Origin: Flagellimonas spongiicola
GTDB lineage: Bacteria > Bacteroidota > Bacteroidia > Flavobacteriales > Flavobacteriaceae
Reading direction: 5' to 3'
Length of the DNA stretch: 64,000 bases
Assembly: GCF_023502425.1 (NCBI RefSeq)
Contig: NZ_JAMFMA010000002.1
Location: 558,001 to 622,000, forward strand
Position 1 is the first letter of the stretch; each line of letters starts with the position of its first letter. Positions 44,377-51,367 of this stretch are shown one piece after another. The position numbers were made by a program, and so were the translations under genes. The notes beneath the pieces are model-generated. The model was not told the DNA's origin. It saw only the letters and a list, made by a program, of their open reading frames with translations, and did not search any database.

Positions 44377-46275
44377 ATGAGTGATGCCATTAAGCACGAA
44401 TGCGGAATATCAATGATCCGTTTGCTTAAACCGCTAGAATACTACAAGGAAAAATACGGTACAGCATTTTATGGGGTAAATAAGATGTACCTCATGATGG
44501 AAAAACAGCACAATCGCGGACAAGATGGTGCTGGCTTTGCAAGTATCAAAATGGACATGAATCCCGGGGAGCGTTATATGAGCAGGGTGCGTTCTGCACA
44601 GCAGCAACCCATACAGGATATCTTTGCCCAAATTAATGAAAGGATCAATACCGCACTGGAGCAGAATCCCGAATATGAAAATGATGTTGCACTCCAAAAA
44701 AAGAACATACCTTATATAGGTGAACTCTTAATGGGTCACGTAAGATATGGCACCTTTGGTAAAAACAGTATCGAAAGTGTTCACCCCTTCTTACGCCAGA
44801 ACAACTGGATGCATCGTAATCTTATCGTAGCTGGTAATTTTAATCTCACCAATGTTAATGAGCTTTTTGGGAACTTGGTGGAATTAGGTCAGCATCCCAA
44901 GGAAATGGCGGATACCGTTACCGTCATGGAAAAAATAGGTCATTTTCTGGACGATGCCGTCGCCAAGCTCTATAAACAAATCAAGAAGGAAGGGTATAAC
45001 AAAAGGGAGGCTTCACCACTAATCGCTGAGCGATTGAATGTTGCAAAAATTTTACGAAAAGCTTCCAAAAACTGGGATGGCGGGTATACCATGGGAGGTC
45101 TACTTGGGCACGGTGATGCATTTGTGGTTCGTGATCCCGCTGGTATTAGGCCCGCCTACTACTATCAGGATGACGAAGTTGTTGTTGTAGCATCTGAAAG
45201 ACCTGTGATACAAACTGTGTTTAATGTTGGTTATGACGAGGTGAAGGAATTGGATCCTGGTCATGCGGTGATTATCAAAAAGAAAGGTACAGTCCACTCT
45301 GAAGAAATATTGGAACCAACTGAACGGAAAGCATGTTCATTTGAACGTATATACTTTTCCAGAGGGAGTGATAAAGAAATTTACCAAGAAAGAAAGATGC
45401 TTGGTAAATTGGTATTTCCTCAAATACTCAAGTCCATTAATAATGACTTGGTGAATACTGTTTTCTCCTATATTCCAAATACTGCGGAAACTTCATTTTT
45501 TGGAATGGTGAAAGAAGCTCAGAACTATTTGAATAAAAGAAAAGAAGAACAGATTCTCGAACTTGGAACCAACATCACCGCGGAGAAACTGAATAAAATC
45601 TTAGATGTGCGACCAAGGATTGAAAAGGTGGCCATAAAAGATGCAAAGCTCAGAACCTTTATCACCCAAGACAGTAGTCGTGACGATTTAGTTGCCCACG
45701 TTTATGATATCTCTTATGGTTCGGTAAAGAAAGGTGATAATCTGGTAATCATAGATGACAGTATTGTTAGAGGTACCACCTTGAAGAAAAGTATCCTTAA
45801 AATATTGGACCGTCTATCCCCTAAAAAAATTGTAGTTGTTTCATCCGCTCCACAAATCAGATACCCTGACTGTTATGGAATAGATATGGCAAAGTTGGAA
45901 GACTTTGTGGCGTTTAAAGCTGCTCAAGCTTTACATGAAGATCATGGCACTACTTCCAAAATTAAAGAGATCTATGAAAAGTGTTTGGCACAAAAAGATT
46001 CCAAGGATAAGGAAGTGGTCAATTACGTGAAGGAATTCTATGCGCCATTTACCGCTGATCAAATTTCAAAGAAAATTGCTGAAATACTAAGTCCAAAAGG
46101 AATCAAGGCAGAGGTTGATATTATTTACCAAAGTATTGAAGGCTTACATCAGGCTTGTCCCAAAAATTTAGGGGATTGGTATTTTACTGGAGATTACCCA
46201 ACCCCAGGAGGTAACCGGGTAGTAAACCGGGCGTTTATCAATTTTTACGAAGGGAAGAACCAAAGAGCTTATTAA
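44377..46275 (+). CDS. Amidophosphoribosyltransferase (PurF-like), long form
   Basis: 632 residues, about 130-150 longer than standard PurF. The N-terminal Ntn-type glutaminase domain starts MSDAIKHECGI; Cys9 after Glu8 would become the N-terminal nucleophile after removal of eight residues. HNRGQDGAGFASI, GHVRYGTFG and DPAGIRPAYYY are typical class II amidotransferase motifs. The phosphoribosyltransferase domain has the PRPP loop LVIIDDSIVRGTTLKKS (about residues 455-471). Insertions lie around residues 60-100 and 360-440. First step of purine synthesis is the expected role; since Bacteroidota often have a second, shorter PurF, this one may be specialised. Followed by the small RNA array. 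Confidence 0.88.
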   Translation: MSDAIKHECGISMIRLLKPLEYYKEKYGTAFYGVNKMYLMMEKQHNRGQDGAGFASIKMDMNPGERYMSRVRSAQQQPIQDIFAQINERINTALEQNPEYENDVALQKKNIPYIGELLMGHVRYGTFGKNSIESVHPFLRQNNWMHRNLIVAGNFNLTNVNELFGNLVELGQHPKEMADTVTVMEKIGHFLDDAVAKLYKQIKKEGYNKREASPLIAERLNVAKILRKASKNWDGGYTMGGLLGHGDAFVVRDPAGIRPAYYYQDDEVVVVASERPVIQTVFNVGYDEVKELDPGHAVIIKKKGTVHSEEILEPTERKACSFERIYFSRGSDKEIYQERKMLGKLVFPQILKSINNDLVNTVFSYIPNTAETSFFGMVKEAQNYLNKRKEEQILELGTNITAEKLNKILDVRPRIEKVAIKDAKLRTFITQDSSRDDLVAHVYDISYGSVKKGDNLVIIDDSIVRGTTLKKSILKILDRLSPKKIVVVSSAPQIRYPDCYGIDMAKLEDFVAFKAAQALHEDHGTTSKIKEIYEKCLAQKDSKDKEVVNYVKEFYAPFTADQISKKIAEILSPKGIKAEVDIIYQSIEGLHQACPKNLGDWYFTGDYPTPGGNRVVNRAFINFYEGKNQRAY

Positions 46276-46366: not shown

Positions 46367-46374
46367 TACTTTAG
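46367..46374 (+). promoter_or_regulatory. -7 box of small RNA copy 1
   Basis: TACTTTAG, one mismatch to TAnnTTTG, five bases before the conserved core at 46380. Confidence 0.65.
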
Positions 46375-46379
46375 TATTG

Positions 46380-46454
46380 CCATAGCATAAGTAGGTTAAG
46401 TTCATGGTAAGATTTGGGGCAAAAAAGGTGGAAGCTATTCCACCTTTTTTATTT
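46380..46454 (+). ncRNA. Tandem small RNA, copy 1 of 4
   Basis: The 40-base core 46380-46419 (begins CCATAGCATAAGTAGG, ends GTAAGATTTGGGG) is identical to copies 2 and 3. It contains three TAAG motifs at core positions 9, 18 and 29. It is followed by a terminator: 13-bp stem 46421-46433 with 46438-46450, loop GCTA, and a T-rich tail. The -7 box is five bases upstream of the core. The predicted RNA is about 75 nt with an almost unstructured 5' half. No ORF runs consistently through the copies. No family name can be given without an Rfam search. Confidence 0.8.
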
Positions 46455-46532
46455 TACCGTTTCTTCCCCAACCTGCAATTCAATCGAAAAAACATCTCAA
46501 TACTGTATTTCAGCTAAGCAACTGGGCGTTTA

Positions 46533-46574
46533 TCTAAAAGCTTCTTCAAAGCGAGTTGGTCTGCCTTACATTTG
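46533..46574 (+). promoter_or_regulatory. Promoter of small RNA copy 2 with upstream element
   Basis: TACATTTG (46567-46574), a perfect -7 box, lies five bases before the core. TCTAAAAGCTT (46533-46543) lies 23 bases upstream of it, and the same element with the same spacing is found before copy 3. Confidence 0.7.
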
Positions 46575-46579
46575 GAGGA

Positions 46580-46655
46580 CCATAGCATAAGTAGGTTAAG
46601 TTCATGGTAAGATTTGGGGAAAGCGACCGGAGTAATCTTCGGTCGCTTTATTTTT
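46580..46655 (+). ncRNA. Tandem small RNA, copy 2 of 4
   Basis: Core 46580-46619 identical to copies 1 and 3. Terminator stem of 13 bp, 46620-46632 (AAAGCGACCGGAG) with 46637-46649 (CTTCGGTCGCTTT), loop TAAT, then ATTTTT. The stem sequence shares nothing with that of copy 1 beyond the A/T base, yet length and loop size are the same. The leader GGAGGACC between -7 box and core is shared with copy 3. Confidence 0.82.
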
Positions 46656-46747
46656 GGGGTATCCACAACCATTGCGTAGTCCTTTTCCTTGTTTCCCGTA
46701 CGTTCCCATTACAATACTTGTCGTTCACCCAAATTACAGGAGTTTCG

Positions 46748-46789
46748 TCTAAAAGCTTTCATTTAAACCATGCCTCTGCATTACTTTTG
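46748..46789 (+). promoter_or_regulatory. Promoter of small RNA copy 3 with upstream element
   Basis: TACTTTTG (46782-46789), perfect -7 box, five bases before the core; TCTAAAAGCTT (46748-46758) exactly 23 bases upstream, as in copy 2. Confidence 0.7.
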
Positions 46790-46794
46790 GAGGA

Positions 46795-46870
46795 CCATAG
46801 CATAAGTAGGTTAAGTTCATGGTAAGATTTGGGGAAAGAAGGCGGAGCGTGCTCCGCCTTCTTTATATTT
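46795..46870 (+). ncRNA. Tandem small RNA, copy 3 of 4
   Basis: Core 46795-46834 identical to copies 1 and 2. Terminator stem 46835-46847 (AAAGAAGGCGGAG) with 46852-46864 (CTCCGCCTTCTTT), 13 bp, loop CGTG, followed by ATATTT. Together with copy 2 it forms the closest pair, sharing promoter, leader and core. Confidence 0.82.
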
Positions 46871-46974
46871 GAGTCCCAATGATTTACCGAAATTCCGCTT
46901 CTAAAACATTCTCAGCTTTTTAACCGAAAATCAAAAAATTCCTCAAAAACTTTTGTTATTTCTCACAATACCAG

Positions 46975-46982
46975 TAATTTAG
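46975..46982 (+). promoter_or_regulatory. -7 box of small RNA copy 4
   Basis: TAATTTAG, five bases before the core at 46988; a TTG at 46953-46955 lies 19 bases upstream, giving a normal TTG/-7 promoter. Confidence 0.65.
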
Positions 46983-46987
46983 TTTCG

Positions 46988-47063
46988 CCATAGCATAAGT
47001 AGGTTAAGTTTATGGTAAGATTTGGGACGAAAAGGGTGAGGGCTTCCTCGCCCTTTTCTATTT
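46988..47063 (+). ncRNA. Tandem small RNA, copy 4 of 4
   Basis: Core 46988-47026 differs from the others by C to T at core position 24 and by A instead of G at position 40. Terminator stem 47029-47041 (GAAAAGGGTGAGG) with 47046-47058 (CCTCGCCCTTTTC), 13 bp including one U-G pair, loop GCTT, then TATTT. It ends just before the stop codon of the convergent lipoprotein gene. Confidence 0.8.
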
Positions 47064-47065
47064 AC

Positions 47066-47455
47066 TCAATTCTGGTCATCTTTTTGGTTGTCAGCAGACA
47101 GTTTTAGATTTTCAGAAATCACCTTAAAATTCGTCGCACTGCTAACTTTAATTCCGTTTACAGTTAGTGTTATTGGACCCGTTGTAGCCCCTGACGGAAC
47201 CGTTACCACCAACCGGGTGGTGCTAGCGGTAATTATTTCTGCTTTCTTGCCATTAAACTGAATGGTGTTGTCCTCCAAAAAGTCACCAAAACCCTTTCCT
47301 TCCAAGACCACAATTTCACCTATTGGACCCGTTGTTGGTTGCACACTGGAGATTGTAGTTACCGTTCCATCAAAGGTGTCCACATCATCCTTGTTACAAG
47401 CAAATGCAGCAACTAGCAATAACAATAAGAAGTTCGTATTGGGCGGCTTAACCAT
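47066..47455 (-). CDS. IPT/TIG domain lipoprotein, short
   Basis: 129 residues. Lipoprotein signal peptide with lipobox AFAC, acylated Cys20, followed by NKDDVD. Residues about 35-115 form one IPT/TIG immunoglobulin-like domain: SSVQPTTGPIGEIVVLEGKGF, IQFNGKKAEIITASTTRLVV, VPSGATTGPITLTVNG. The polar tail ends NQKDDQN. The TIG domain is clearly similar to that of the next gene (shared pattern VTVP-GATTG and SS-TNF), so the two are duplicates. Cell-surface or periplasmic; function unknown. Preceded by the 21-bp-repeat operator. Confidence 0.82.
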   Translation of the reverse strand: MVKPPNTNFLLLLLVAAFACNKDDVDTFDGTVTTISSVQPTTGPIGEIVVLEGKGFGDFLEDNTIQFNGKKAEIITASTTRLVVTVPSGATTGPITLTVNGIKVSSATNFKVISENLKLSADNQKDDQN

Positions 47456-47477
47456 GACTTGTTCGCTTTATCATGAA

Positions 47478-47562
47478 CAAAGGAACAGGCTTTACTAATG
47501 CTATTTATACGCCAATTCACGGATGCCTGTTTTGAATTGACAAATAGGCGATTTCAATTGAT
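47478..47562 (-). promoter_or_regulatory. Operator with 21-bp direct repeats and -7 box, lipoprotein gene 1
   Basis: In gene direction: repeat unit 1 (47562-47542, ATCAATTGAAAT...), unit 2 (47541-47521, GTCAATTCAAAACAGGCAT), half-site GTGAATTG (47520-47513), 27 bases, then TTCCTTTG (47485-47478), 22 bases before the ATG. Same geometry as before the two other lipoprotein genes. Confidence 0.7.
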
Positions 47563-47592
47563 TGTGCTTCAGTAACTCCACTTAAATCCAAT

Positions 47593-47622
47593 AAAAAAGT
47601 GCTACCAAGGCAGCACTTTTTT
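47593..47622 (-). terminator. Intrinsic terminator after lipoprotein gene 2
   Basis: AAAAAAGTGCT (47593-47603) and AGCACTTTTTT (47612-47622) are exact 11-bp arms around an 8-base loop, 22 bases past the stop of the gene at 47645. Symmetric, could act in both directions. Confidence 0.9.
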
Positions 47623-47644
47623 GTAACGAGATAATTGATAATTC

Positions 47645-48865
47645 TTATGGCAAAATTTGAGATAATACTTTTATCTCTGTAGTGCGGTTATTACCTTCGC
47701 CCGTTACACTAATAACCTGTATATATCCCTTTACGCCAGCCCCATTCACAAAGCTGTAGATTCCATCTTTTGTAATTGCAATATTATCCAATACTGTTCC
47801 AGTAGAATGGTCAATGATTTGATCAACATCAGTTGAAGTAATAGAAGCAAAATTCATTTCCTCTTCTGCTCTAAATGTGGTTTCAGGGGCTTGATTCCCG
47901 AAGGGATCTGCAAATTCCTTTCCTGCTAGTAAATGCGGTGAAATCAAATTGGGAAACTGGTCGCCTGCAGTACCATCTAATCCAAGGACACCAAATGCCA
48001 TATCTATCGTTATACGATCATCACTCGATAGTTCTTCGGCTTGTCCATTGGTATATACATCTCCATTGCTAGACTTAAACAAATTGCCAATTTCAAAATT
48101 CCCTTGACTACCTAGTGTAATTGGTGTTTCCAGATTGTTATAAACATTCAATAAGGGATATTTTCCACCGCTACCCCCTTGGCCTTGTGCCACTACCTGA
48201 AATTCATATGTAACAGTAGTGAATTCTTCATCATCAGTATCTTTGACCTGAAAGGTCAATACCACAACACTGCCAACAGCGTCATCTACAGGAATAGCAT
48301 ACTCAACATCCCCCTCTGTTTGTGCTGCTATAGCGGCTTTGATTTCCTCTGAAAACACTGAAGCGGCAGTTTCACCATCTACGGATTTGACTAAATCAAA
48401 GCTTTCAAGTCCTTCAGGCACCTCCATACTTAGTATCATAAATACAGATTCCCCTACCTCAAACCTATTTGTTTTATAATCATTATCAGGGGTCAAGGAG
48501 ATAGTTGGTTTACGGTCAACCACACTAAAATTGGTTGAGCTCGAAGCTTCTTCTCCATCTACTTCAACTTCAATTTTTCCCGTTGTGGCACCCTCTGGCA
48601 CGGTAACGGTCAATAGGGTTGTAGTAGCGGCATCTATTGTGGCAGTTTGCCCGTTAAAGGTCACCTTATTGCCAGCAGCAGTGGACGCAAAGTTCTTTCC
48701 CGTAATTTCAACGGTAGCTCCATGATCCCCGCTGGATGGACTAAAGCTTTTGATGCAGAGTGTAGTGCTTTCATCTGGTACGGACTGGTCATCATCTTTG
48801 CTACAAGACAAGGCGAAAAGGCCAGTTGCAACTAATACAATACTTACATAAACAATTTTTTTCAT
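47645..48865 (-). CDS. IPT/TIG domain lipoprotein, 406 aa
   Basis: Lipoprotein signal peptide with lipobox ALSC, Cys21, followed by SKDDDQ. About residues 36-116 are an IPT/TIG domain (IKSFSPSSGDHGATVEITGKNF, VTVPEGATTGKIEVEVDG). Then come about 110 residues that look like a second beta-sandwich (ISLTPDNDYKTNRFEVGESV; VVLTFQVKDTDDEEFTTVTY) and a C-terminal half without recognised fold that contains short Gly-rich and Asp-rich stretches (VAQGQGGSGGKYPLLNVYNN). Surface-exposed or outer-membrane lipoprotein; ligand unknown. No partner porin (SusC-like) gene is present nearby. Confidence 0.8.
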   Translation of the reverse strand: MKKIVYVSIVLVATGLFALSCSKDDDQSVPDESTTLCIKSFSPSSGDHGATVEITGKNFASTAAGNKVTFNGQTATIDAATTTLLTVTVPEGATTGKIEVEVDGEEASSSTNFSVVDRKPTISLTPDNDYKTNRFEVGESVFMILSMEVPEGLESFDLVKSVDGETAASVFSEEIKAAIAAQTEGDVEYAIPVDDAVGSVVVLTFQVKDTDDEEFTTVTYEFQVVAQGQGGSGGKYPLLNVYNNLETPITLGSQGNFEIGNLFKSSNGDVYTNGQAEELSSDDRITIDMAFGVLGLDGTAGDQFPNLISPHLLAGKEFADPFGNQAPETTFRAEEEMNFASITSTDVDQIIDHSTGTVLDNIAITKDGIYSFVNGAGVKGYIQVISVTGEGNNRTTEIKVLSQILP

Positions 48866-48889
48866 GATCTAATTTTTAAGGTTAAAACA

Positions 48890-48974
48890 CAAAGAAATTG
48901 GTAAGTACGTATTAATTACCACCCCAATTCACGGATGCCTGTTTTGGGTTGACAAATGCCGGTTTTGGGTTGAC
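48890..48974 (-). promoter_or_regulatory. Operator with 21-bp direct repeats and -7 box, lipoprotein gene 2
   Basis: Best-preserved copy. Units 48974-48954 and 48953-48933 both begin GTCAACCCAAAAC and agree at 18 of 21 positions; half-site GTGAATTG follows (48932-48925), then 27 bases and TTTCTTTG (48897-48890), 24 bases before the ATG. Confidence 0.78.
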
Positions 48975-48993
48975 TGAACTATTCCCAAAAACT

Positions 48994-49016
48994 AAAAAAG
49001 CCCGCAAATGCGGGCT
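48994..49016 (-). terminator. Intrinsic terminator after lipoprotein gene 3
   Basis: GCCCGCAAATGCGGGC hairpin with six T on the minus strand. Identical over about 27 bases to the terminator at 50711-50736. Confidence 0.9.
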
Positions 49017-49039
49017 TCTATTTTTAATTGACACCAACT

Positions 49040-50593
49040 TTATTTAATGAAAACAGCATTTGCTCGTGAAGTTTCATAACCGTTGGACAAGTCCTGTTCA
49101 AAAATAGATTCACCATTCTTAATCCACAATCTTGCTGCCCAATTGGGGCCTTCTGATGCTTGAGATCCCGTTACATATACCTTTTTATCACTTTTATCCA
49201 CTTTAAGGTCGCTGGCATAAAAGTTAATGCTATTATTATTACTTAAATTAAATTCTTCCTCATGCACCCAAAGTTTGGTGGCATATTTTCCATTCTCATT
49301 TGTTGTACCTATAGTGTAAACGACCCCATCATCAACAAAGATATCTTTGGCCGAGGTATCACTAGCCGTATCTAAATCCGATGTTGGGCCATTTACCATC
49401 CATCTTCGGGCTTTGACATTGCCACCTTCAAGGATTCTACCTGCCACATATATATCATCATTTTTGGTTATAAACATTCCGTTAGCTTCGGCACCCATAT
49501 CGTTTTCATCTAAAACCGTACTTGACCCATTTAATTCCCAGAGTTTTGCCTTGTGTATACTTGGTTGGCTATTGTATTCATATCCCACCGCATATATTCC
49601 ATTTTCATTTGCTGCAATTGAATACAGCTTTTGATTAATTTCTTCCGATTCTACCAAATGTTCATTGATTCCATCCCAAATAATTCCTTCATTGAATCCT
49701 CCGGACCATCTATAGCCGGCAACATAGTAATTGGATTCGAATACTGTAACGGAATGAGCGTTACCATGATGAAAACCAACTTGATTCAAAATTTTAGGAA
49801 TGCCATCTATCCAAATAGCCGCTTGATACTTGCTGCCGTCATATATGCTTCCTACTATATATTGACTTCCTGATGCTGTAACATATATATCATTTGCATA
49901 AGAAGTGGTGGATCCATCTGGCACCGTTAACTTAGTAGAATTACCATTGACCCATAATGTGGCTTCGTCATTCGTCTGGCCTACAACGTAAACATTAGGG
50001 TTAACGGTAATAGTTGCCGCAACGGTTTTATTGTCTACCGTAACGGATATTGTAGCCGTTCCGCTGCCGCTAGCGGTAATCAGTCCGGTTTGATCTACAG
50101 TTGCCACGGCTTCATCATCAGAAGCCCAAACTGGGCTACTGGTTTGATCTACATCCGCATCTATCGTCAAGTTAAGAGAAGCCGTATCATTGGTGCTTAA
50201 TTCTAGTGCTGTATTATCCAAGGTCAGTGTGTTTACAGGCCCGTCTAAAACACTTACGGAACAAGTTGCTATTGCCTCATCCACTGTTGCAGTAATGGTT
50301 GCAGTCCCTATGGACAAAGGTGTAACCTCACCACTGCTATTTACCGTTGCCACCGCAGTATTACTGCTAGTCCATGTTACTGCAGCACTACCAATATCCG
50401 TGGTCACTGCCAAGGACTCCTTATAAAATGCAAACGGATACATTTGCAAGCTTGTCTTGTCTAATTCTATTGCTGTTACGGGATCTGGATTTGAGCCAGG
50501 ATCTGGTGTGTCTGGGGTATCATCCTTTCCACAGGAGTGGACCAGGAATCCAAAACATAGTAGTACAAGACCTAAATATGCAATTCTTTTCAT
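49040..50593 (-). CDS. Lipoprotein with two bacterial Ig-like (Big2) domains and a propeller-like repeat region
   Basis: 517 residues. Lipobox VHSC, Cys21, followed by GKDDTPDTPDPGSNPDP. Two Big2 domains at about 40-118 (VTWTSSNTAVATVNSSGEVT) and 122-202 (WASDDEAVATVDQTGLITA). From about 205 to the end there are some six repeats of about 50 residues with the pattern YVxG...KxxLWxNG (for example IYVAGRILEGGNVKARRWM and VYTIGTTNENGKYATKLWV), which suggests a beta-propeller or similar all-beta fold. Exported, membrane-anchored; probable binding role, ligand unknown. Preceded by the third copy of the 21-bp-repeat operator. Confidence 0.82.
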   Translation of the reverse strand: MKRIAYLGLVLLCFGFLVHSCGKDDTPDTPDPGSNPDPVTAIELDKTSLQMYPFAFYKESLAVTTDIGSAAVTWTSSNTAVATVNSSGEVTPLSIGTATITATVDEAIATCSVSVLDGPVNTLTLDNTALELSTNDTASLNLTIDADVDQTSSPVWASDDEAVATVDQTGLITASGSGTATISVTVDNKTVAATITVNPNVYVVGQTNDEATLWVNGNSTKLTVPDGSTTSYANDIYVTASGSQYIVGSIYDGSKYQAAIWIDGIPKILNQVGFHHGNAHSVTVFESNYYVAGYRWSGGFNEGIIWDGINEHLVESEEINQKLYSIAANENGIYAVGYEYNSQPSIHKAKLWELNGSSTVLDENDMGAEANGMFITKNDDIYVAGRILEGGNVKARRWMVNGPTSDLDTASDTSAKDIFVDDGVVYTIGTTNENGKYATKLWVHEEEFNLSNNNSINFYASDLKVDKSDKKVYVTGSQASEGPNWAARLWIKNGESIFEQDLSNGYETSRANAVFIK

Positions 50594-50758: not shown

Positions 50759-51367
50759 TTACTTGTTGGCAGCGTAGTACTCCGATACTTTGTCCCAATT
50801 GATCACATTGAAAAATGCAGCAACATAATCAGGTCTGCGATTTTGATAATTCAAATAATAGGCATGCTCCCAAACATCCAAACCTAAAATTGGATGCCCA
50901 CTACAACCTACTTCCGGCATCAGGGGATTGTCCTGGTTAGGTGTGGAACATACTTCTACTTTTCCACCTTTATGGACACATAACCAAGCCCATCCAGAAC
51001 CGAAGCGTGTTCCTGCCGCAGCACTGAATTGTTCTTTAAAAGCATCAAAAGATCCAAAAGCTTCATCAATTGCAGAAGCCAGTTCGCCACTTGGTGTACC
51101 GCCGCCATCAGGAGACATTACTTCCCAAAACAGACAGTGGTTGTAAAAACCGCCTCCGTTATTCCGCACTGCTCCATTGGACATGTCCAAACTGGAGAGT
51201 ATGTCTTCAATACTCTTGCCTTCCATATCTGTACCAGCAATAGCACCATTTAATTTAGTGGTGTAGCCATTGTGGTGTTTGGTATGATGAATCTCCATGG
51301 TCCTGGCATCTATATGTGGCTCCAAGGCATCGTATGCGTAAGCTAATTTTGGTAAATCAAAAGCCAT
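50759..51367 (-). CDS. sodA: Superoxide dismutase, Fe/Mn family
   Basis: 202 residues. Disproportionates superoxide in the cytoplasm (no signal peptide). Metal ligands by family pattern: His in [11 protein letters not shown] (His27 region), His in [13 protein letters not shown] (His77 region), Asp and His in [26 protein letters not shown] is conserved. Metal preference (Fe, Mn or both) cannot be told safely from sequence. Single gene with its own terminator; AddA-like helicase gene is divergent from it. Confidence 0.95.

Follow-up and report, generated by a model that had tools for sequence, protein, structure and literature searches.

Tandem sRNA-like units with a near-invariant core between purF and sodA: an apparently undescribed family in Flavobacteriaceae

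Units and genes at the locus

The window, i.e., the whole 64,000-nucleotide stretch of the Flagellimonas spongiicola genome that was analysed, contains four tandem sRNA-like units (46367–47065, + strand) located directly downstream of purF. All four have the same layout: a −7 box, 5 bases, a 39/40-base core (CCATAGCATAAGTAGGTTAAGTTCATGGTAAGATTTGGGG), 0–1 base, a 13-bp hairpin and a T-rich tail. The features of the locus are as follows:

44377–46275, +: purF (amidophosphoribosyltransferase) ORF, the fixed upstream neighbour of the array
46367–46374, +: copy 1, −7 box TACTTTAG, TAnnTTnG-type at −13
46380–46419, +: copy 1, core of the first-position type (GGGGC)
46421–46450, +: copy 1, terminator hairpin, 13 bp, 4-nt loop
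46567–46574, +: copy 2, −7 box TACATTTG
46580–46619, +: copy 2, core of the middle type
46620–46649, +: copy 2, terminator hairpin
46782–46789, +: copy 3, −7 box TACTTTTG
46795–46834, +: copy 3, core of the middle type
46835–46864, +: copy 3, terminator hairpin
46952–46982, +: copy 4, putative promoter (TTTG, 19-nt spacer, TAATTTAG), a block conserved in last copies across genera
46988–47027, +: copy 4, core of the last-position type (T at 24; GGGA then CG)
47029–47058, +: copy 4, terminator hairpin
50759–51367, −: sodA (superoxide dismutase) ORF, convergent, downstream of the array

The core starts given in a preliminary description of this DNA (46380, 46580, 46795 and 46988; spacing 200, 215 and 193) were reproduced exactly, as was the identity of the cores: copies 1–3 are the same over 40 nt, and copy 4 carries two changes, C to T at position 24 and G to A at position 40. 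Each of the four boxes ends exactly 5 bases before its core, and the predicted folds agree with the earlier picture of four hairpins with 13 pairs and a 4-nt loop; copy 3 also allows a fold with 14 pairs and a loop of 2 nt. The first 21 bases of the core have four matches in the window, compared with a mean of 0.01 in shuffled windows. No fifth copy was found elsewhere in the 3.7-Mb genome of this strain, the sole other match having 3 mismatches and no unit around it. As the same core is present in more than 116 related loci, the array is not a product of chance.

Among the related loci listed, purF lies upstream on the same strand in 94, usually at a distance of 102–116 nt from the first core, and in 92, sodA follows the array on the other strand; many of the remaining loci are truncated by the end of a contig or of the locus. 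Judged from these sequences, the locus of the array is fixed, with purF and sodA converging on it. Three lipoprotein-like ORFs are found between the array and sodA in the window (47066–50593, − strand), and nearly all relatives are without them. By visual inspection, two of these ORFs carry IPT/TIG-like repeats and the third Ig-like ones.

Distribution, core conservation and copy types

An exact search of species-representative genomes with the 21-mer yielded at least 116 loci, and the titles of the matches listed name Flavobacteriaceae, except for one labelled just Bacteroidetes. In the 296 units among the matches listed, core positions 22–39, which lie outside the retrieval 21-mer, are nearly invariant; the exceptions are C/T variation at position 24 and, in one clade, the loss of a single base at about position 31. 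The identity of PurF to the protein of the window drops to 70%, while the core stays nearly invariant. The deepest conserved stretch is AAGUUYAUGGUA-N(1–4)-AUUUGGGG, which is retained even in the most divergent homologue (L353), where AGUAGG is missing.

For a wider survey, a covariance model (R2) was used that has the terminator stem as its only structure and that strongly divergent homologues may escape. It matched 239 out of 299 sampled Flavobacteriaceae genomes at E < 1e-8 (counted as table rows) and 258 out of 299 at E ≤ 0.001, with 1 to 8 copies per genome. The genomes carrying the near-invariant RNA range from a reduced one of 1.2 Mb to 6 Mb. About one fifth of the sampled family genomes (G029, G107 and others) gave no convincing match, and several of these are small (1.3–2.2 Mb). 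Outside the family, nothing convincing was found in 395 genomes of the class, where the top score was 44.5 bits; the best-scoring matches (up to this value) were rejected, as those inspected lacked the core. A mobile origin was likewise rejected, as searches of viral contigs, phages and plasmids did not find the core. The near-invariance of positions 22–39 and the presence in 239 of 299 genomes support strong selection on the core, in line with the selection that had been proposed from the window, and point to its conservation across the family. The four units seen here, together with the 1–8 copies per genome, also favour the view that they represent a sibling multicopy RNA family.

The canonical promoter of Bacteroidota is TTTG-N19-TAnnTTTG. 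Of 299 units, 232 have a TAnnTTnG box whose first base lies at exactly −13, compared with 0.45 units per position elsewhere, which is consistent with the independent promoter-like boxes suggested for each copy. With the box this close to the core, the expected transcription start is the first C of the core or a base beside it. At the level of sequence, the units are predicted to possess both a promoter and a Rho-independent terminator of their own, as is characteristic of trans-acting sRNAs.

The copies are ordered. In 57 complete arrays, the first copy has GGGGC, the middle copies have GGGGA, and the last copy has T24 and GGGACG. Hairpins at the same position are 82–83% identical between genomes, whereas those at different positions within one genome share 43–66%. 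The hairpin sequences described earlier as unrelated are so within this genome; between genomes, the hairpins are positional orthologues rather than free sequence. Since positional orthologues are more alike than paralogues, the copy types are old and have been kept apart. The 48 bases upstream of the last copy are 76% identical between genomes, compared with 41% for the first copy, suggesting that the last copy has a conserved promoter region of its own. Its spacer (CACAATACCAG, window 46952–46982) is conserved across genera, which is unusual for a plain spacer, and it may be a regulator site.

Recent amplification of the middle copy was observed in some genomes, for example with three near-identical 213-bp units (L117, 2068–3200) or at least seven copies (G721:C71:40432–42197). 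Elsewhere (L023, minus strand, position 1283), intact copies are accompanied by a middle copy whose core has decayed at the 3′ end (GGTAACATGTGTGA) and which is perhaps losing function.

The fixed site between convergent genes, the strong hairpins on the purF strand and the fact that no terminator was found between purF and copy 1 would suit an array of serial terminators that insulates purF and sodA from each other and has little function in trans. Such insulation, however, requires neither an invariant core nor a box at a constant offset nor copy types that differ by position, and 2–6 terminators in series would be redundant, which makes this explanation very improbable.

Terminator helix, core folding and search for targets

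Covariation was counted in 42 units aligned without gaps. In the terminator helix, 8 out of 13 pairs show changes on both sides, with 99.5% of the cells paired, and sliding the whole structure by 1–3 columns lowers the pairing to 39–59%. The compensatory change initially read from four hairpins is therefore also evident from these 42 units. A 5′ hairpin (core positions 1–28) is predicted as well, with pairs that scarcely vary in close relatives. Among 23 distinct variants, it is mostly no stabler than in shuffled sequence, and some of the variants disrupt it. On these grounds, the 5′ hairpin was rejected as a functional structure, and the earlier reading of the core as single-stranded is acceptable; the core is best taken as largely single-stranded.

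The reading frame that follows the only ATG of the core is altered between clades by the one-base deletion class and has no conserved stop, and no stop precedes the variable hairpin. Because the deletion shifts this frame, the core is not expected to be coding, and by their sequence the units are non-coding.

For mRNA targets, pairing energies of the core with the start regions of 683 and then about 1300 genes of this genome were compared with those of shuffled cores. In the larger set, pairing was better than with shuffled cores, at starts only, but this enrichment was gone when the start codon was excluded; it is therefore an artefact produced by the CAU within the core. Start contexts of the type UACC-AUG-AA (UACCAUGAA) showed no notable positional excess. 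The 8-mer CCCAAATC is over-represented before starts, although the counts (6 sense versus 1 antisense) are too few for a claim. The starts of the neighbour genes (purF, sodA, purN and pfkB) gave no pairing signal, nor did a two-genome comparison of 52 orthologue pairs.

Several individual candidates were rejected. The antisense target AAATCTTACCATGAA had no clear excess over the reversed pattern, and purD, which pairs well in this genome, lacks the pairing in relatives. The site upstream of an NlpC/P60 lipoprotein gene (AACCUACUUA), likewise a good candidate in this genome, is not conserved in orthologues among the retrieved relatives (approximate query, 79% identical to the actual protein). 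As for SusC, at 13 starts the predicted pairing of the real core was weaker than that of 187 out of 200 shuffles.

That no mRNA target signal survived the controls speaks for the main rival to base pairing, namely a protein-binding RNA whose core is the recognition site and whose copies titrate the protein, following the logic of CsrB or 6S. The nearly invariant stretch of about 39 bases, which exceeds the usual need of a seed, and the several copies per genome point the same way. However, the unit contains no repeated binding motif, Rfam gave no match to 6S or CsrB, and the 5′ hairpin that could present such a site is no better than shuffled sequence. Titration is accordingly regarded as unlikely, but as an explanation to be taken seriously. 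The invariance of the core across the whole family would also fit pairing with one abundant structured RNA (rRNA, tRNA or similar) instead of mRNAs, to which we attach hardly any probability.

Proposed mechanism and comparison with known sRNAs

When the whole window was compared with Rfam 15, a tRNA was the sole match at the gathering cut-off. The preliminary description had left room for membership in an existing family such as the Flavo-1 motif. This did not hold: the units matched no family at the cut-off, and Flavo-1, a flavobacterial RNA motif like the array, gave no match to them even at E values up to 10. STnc40, HrrF, sraA, MicX and other Rfam families were rejected, as their matches were below the cut-off and either ran through the terminator or had poor structure. 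Neither the core sequence nor a description of it was found in the literature searched, which comprised main texts outside subscription journals, so that some RNA-seq table may already list it. Based on these searches, the array represents an apparently undescribed, new family of putative tandem sibling sRNAs.

The closest resemblance is to FopS/GibS (RF04319) of Bacteroides, paralogous sRNAs of about 65–75 nt encoded at dispersed loci (PMC11697453). FopS sRNAs, to which the RRM protein RbpB binds, block the translation of susC mRNA (PMC11697453). Like the array, they are multicopy, have canonical Bacteroidota promoter boxes, and carry a short conserved 5′ part with UUCAUGGUA..AGAUU..GG followed by a terminator. 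The core shares UUCAUGGUA and AGAUUU with the FopS R1′ seed (UUUUUCAUGGUAUUAGAUUUAAGG), with a 2-nt gap: the seed reads UUCAUGGUA-UU-AGAUUU and the core UUCAUGGUA-AGAUUU. FopS-like copies of Prevotella and Parabacteroides retain the shared stretch up to AGAUU. In shuffle tests, this likeness has a p of about 0.01, and the two collinear exact blocks have a p of about 0.002 (post hoc). The resemblance is thus suggestive, and is not proof of kinship. The array units differ from FopS in their 5′ extension (AAGUAGGUUAAG) and in the GGGG that follows the seed.

The shared motif, the same layout and the multiple copies (shuffle p of about 0.002–0.01, post hoc) could also mean that the array is a true distant homologue of FopS/GibS with the same type of targets, i.e., susC and polysaccharide-utilisation operons. 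The covariance score of copy 1 against RF04319, however, is 21.0 bits, under the 56-bit gathering score, which does not support an identification of the array with FopS, and no RF04319 match was obtained in the genome. Moreover, the SusC start regions of this genome pair worse with the real core than with most shuffled cores, the scattered FopS genes contrast with one tandem row of copies, and no RRM_1 protein (PF00076) was found in this genome, while a Bacteroides control was detected. Homology of this kind therefore seems improbable. Sequences of the FopS-seed type (TTCATGGTATTAGATTTAAGG) were also observed in 16 IMG/VR viral contigs (L358–L373), where many of these sequences precede a hairpin whose loop is CGTGA-like, and Bacteroides phage BX-TP2 has a stretch similar to the FopS seed.

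The units, their boxes at a fixed offset, the covarying terminators, the near-invariant core, the ordered copy types and the conservation throughout the family are established at the level of sequence. With modest confidence, we favour the interpretation that they encode tandem sibling sRNAs of about 75–77 nt that act, like FopS, by base pairing of the core near start codons. The short, largely unstructured and invariant core, the own promoter and terminator, and the resemblance to FopS are what favour base pairing. Every unit would have a housekeeping-type promoter of its own, and its transcript would begin with the first C of the core or a base next to it and end at the terminator of that unit. 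The exposed core would then pair with mRNAs around the start codon, UUYAU being complementary to AURAA, and pairing would block or tune translation as Bacteroides FopS does; it is plausible that the array works like FopS. The several copies would provide dose and separate promoter control, with the last copy wired differently. As Hfq was not found in this genome either, no known chaperone is available for the proposed pairing.

A broader and rather doubtful conjecture is that the array and FopS/GibS descend from, or have converged on, one Bacteroidota-wide start-codon seed (UUYAUGGUA-N-AUUU). The array might then be the core of a Flavobacteriaceae-wide regulon that operates without Hfq or RRM proteins, with the first, middle and last copies dividing the labour.

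Flavobacteriaceae rank among the most abundant bacteria of the sea, and to our knowledge very few of their sRNAs have been described. That about 80% of the sampled genomes encode a near-invariant RNA at the same site marks it as a strong candidate for the role of a basic regulator, and the interest of the array lies in its breadth, invariance, fixed locus and ordered copies. The array, its promoters and the copy order are so well defined that the family lends itself to the study of post-transcriptional control in a lineage for which the genome examined showed neither Hfq nor RRM proteins. A covariance model like R2 would allow annotators to find the family.

Within the family, Rfp18 of Flavobacterium psychrophilum has at least three stem-loops, pairs via the third, is encoded by a single gene and is conserved beyond the species (PMC9723704). 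The array unit (77 nt), with a weak 5′ hairpin and a terminator, is set apart from Rfp18 by this description (PMC9723704). What the two have in common is that they are sRNAs (putative in the case of the array) of Flavobacteriaceae conserved across more than one species.

Among the multicopy RNAs of other bacteria to which the units had been likened, CsrB proved a poor analogue, as the core has no repeated GGA motif. The Qrr sRNAs of Vibrio are siblings with a long invariant core, multiple copies, and their own promoters and terminators, and at the level of sequence the array shares all of these features. The two are not homologous (no Rfam match), Hfq was not found in the present genome, and Qrr genes mostly occupy separate loci whereas the array forms one tandem row. 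On the basis of these features, paralogous sRNAs of the Qrr or FopS type would be a better comparison for the array than CsrB.
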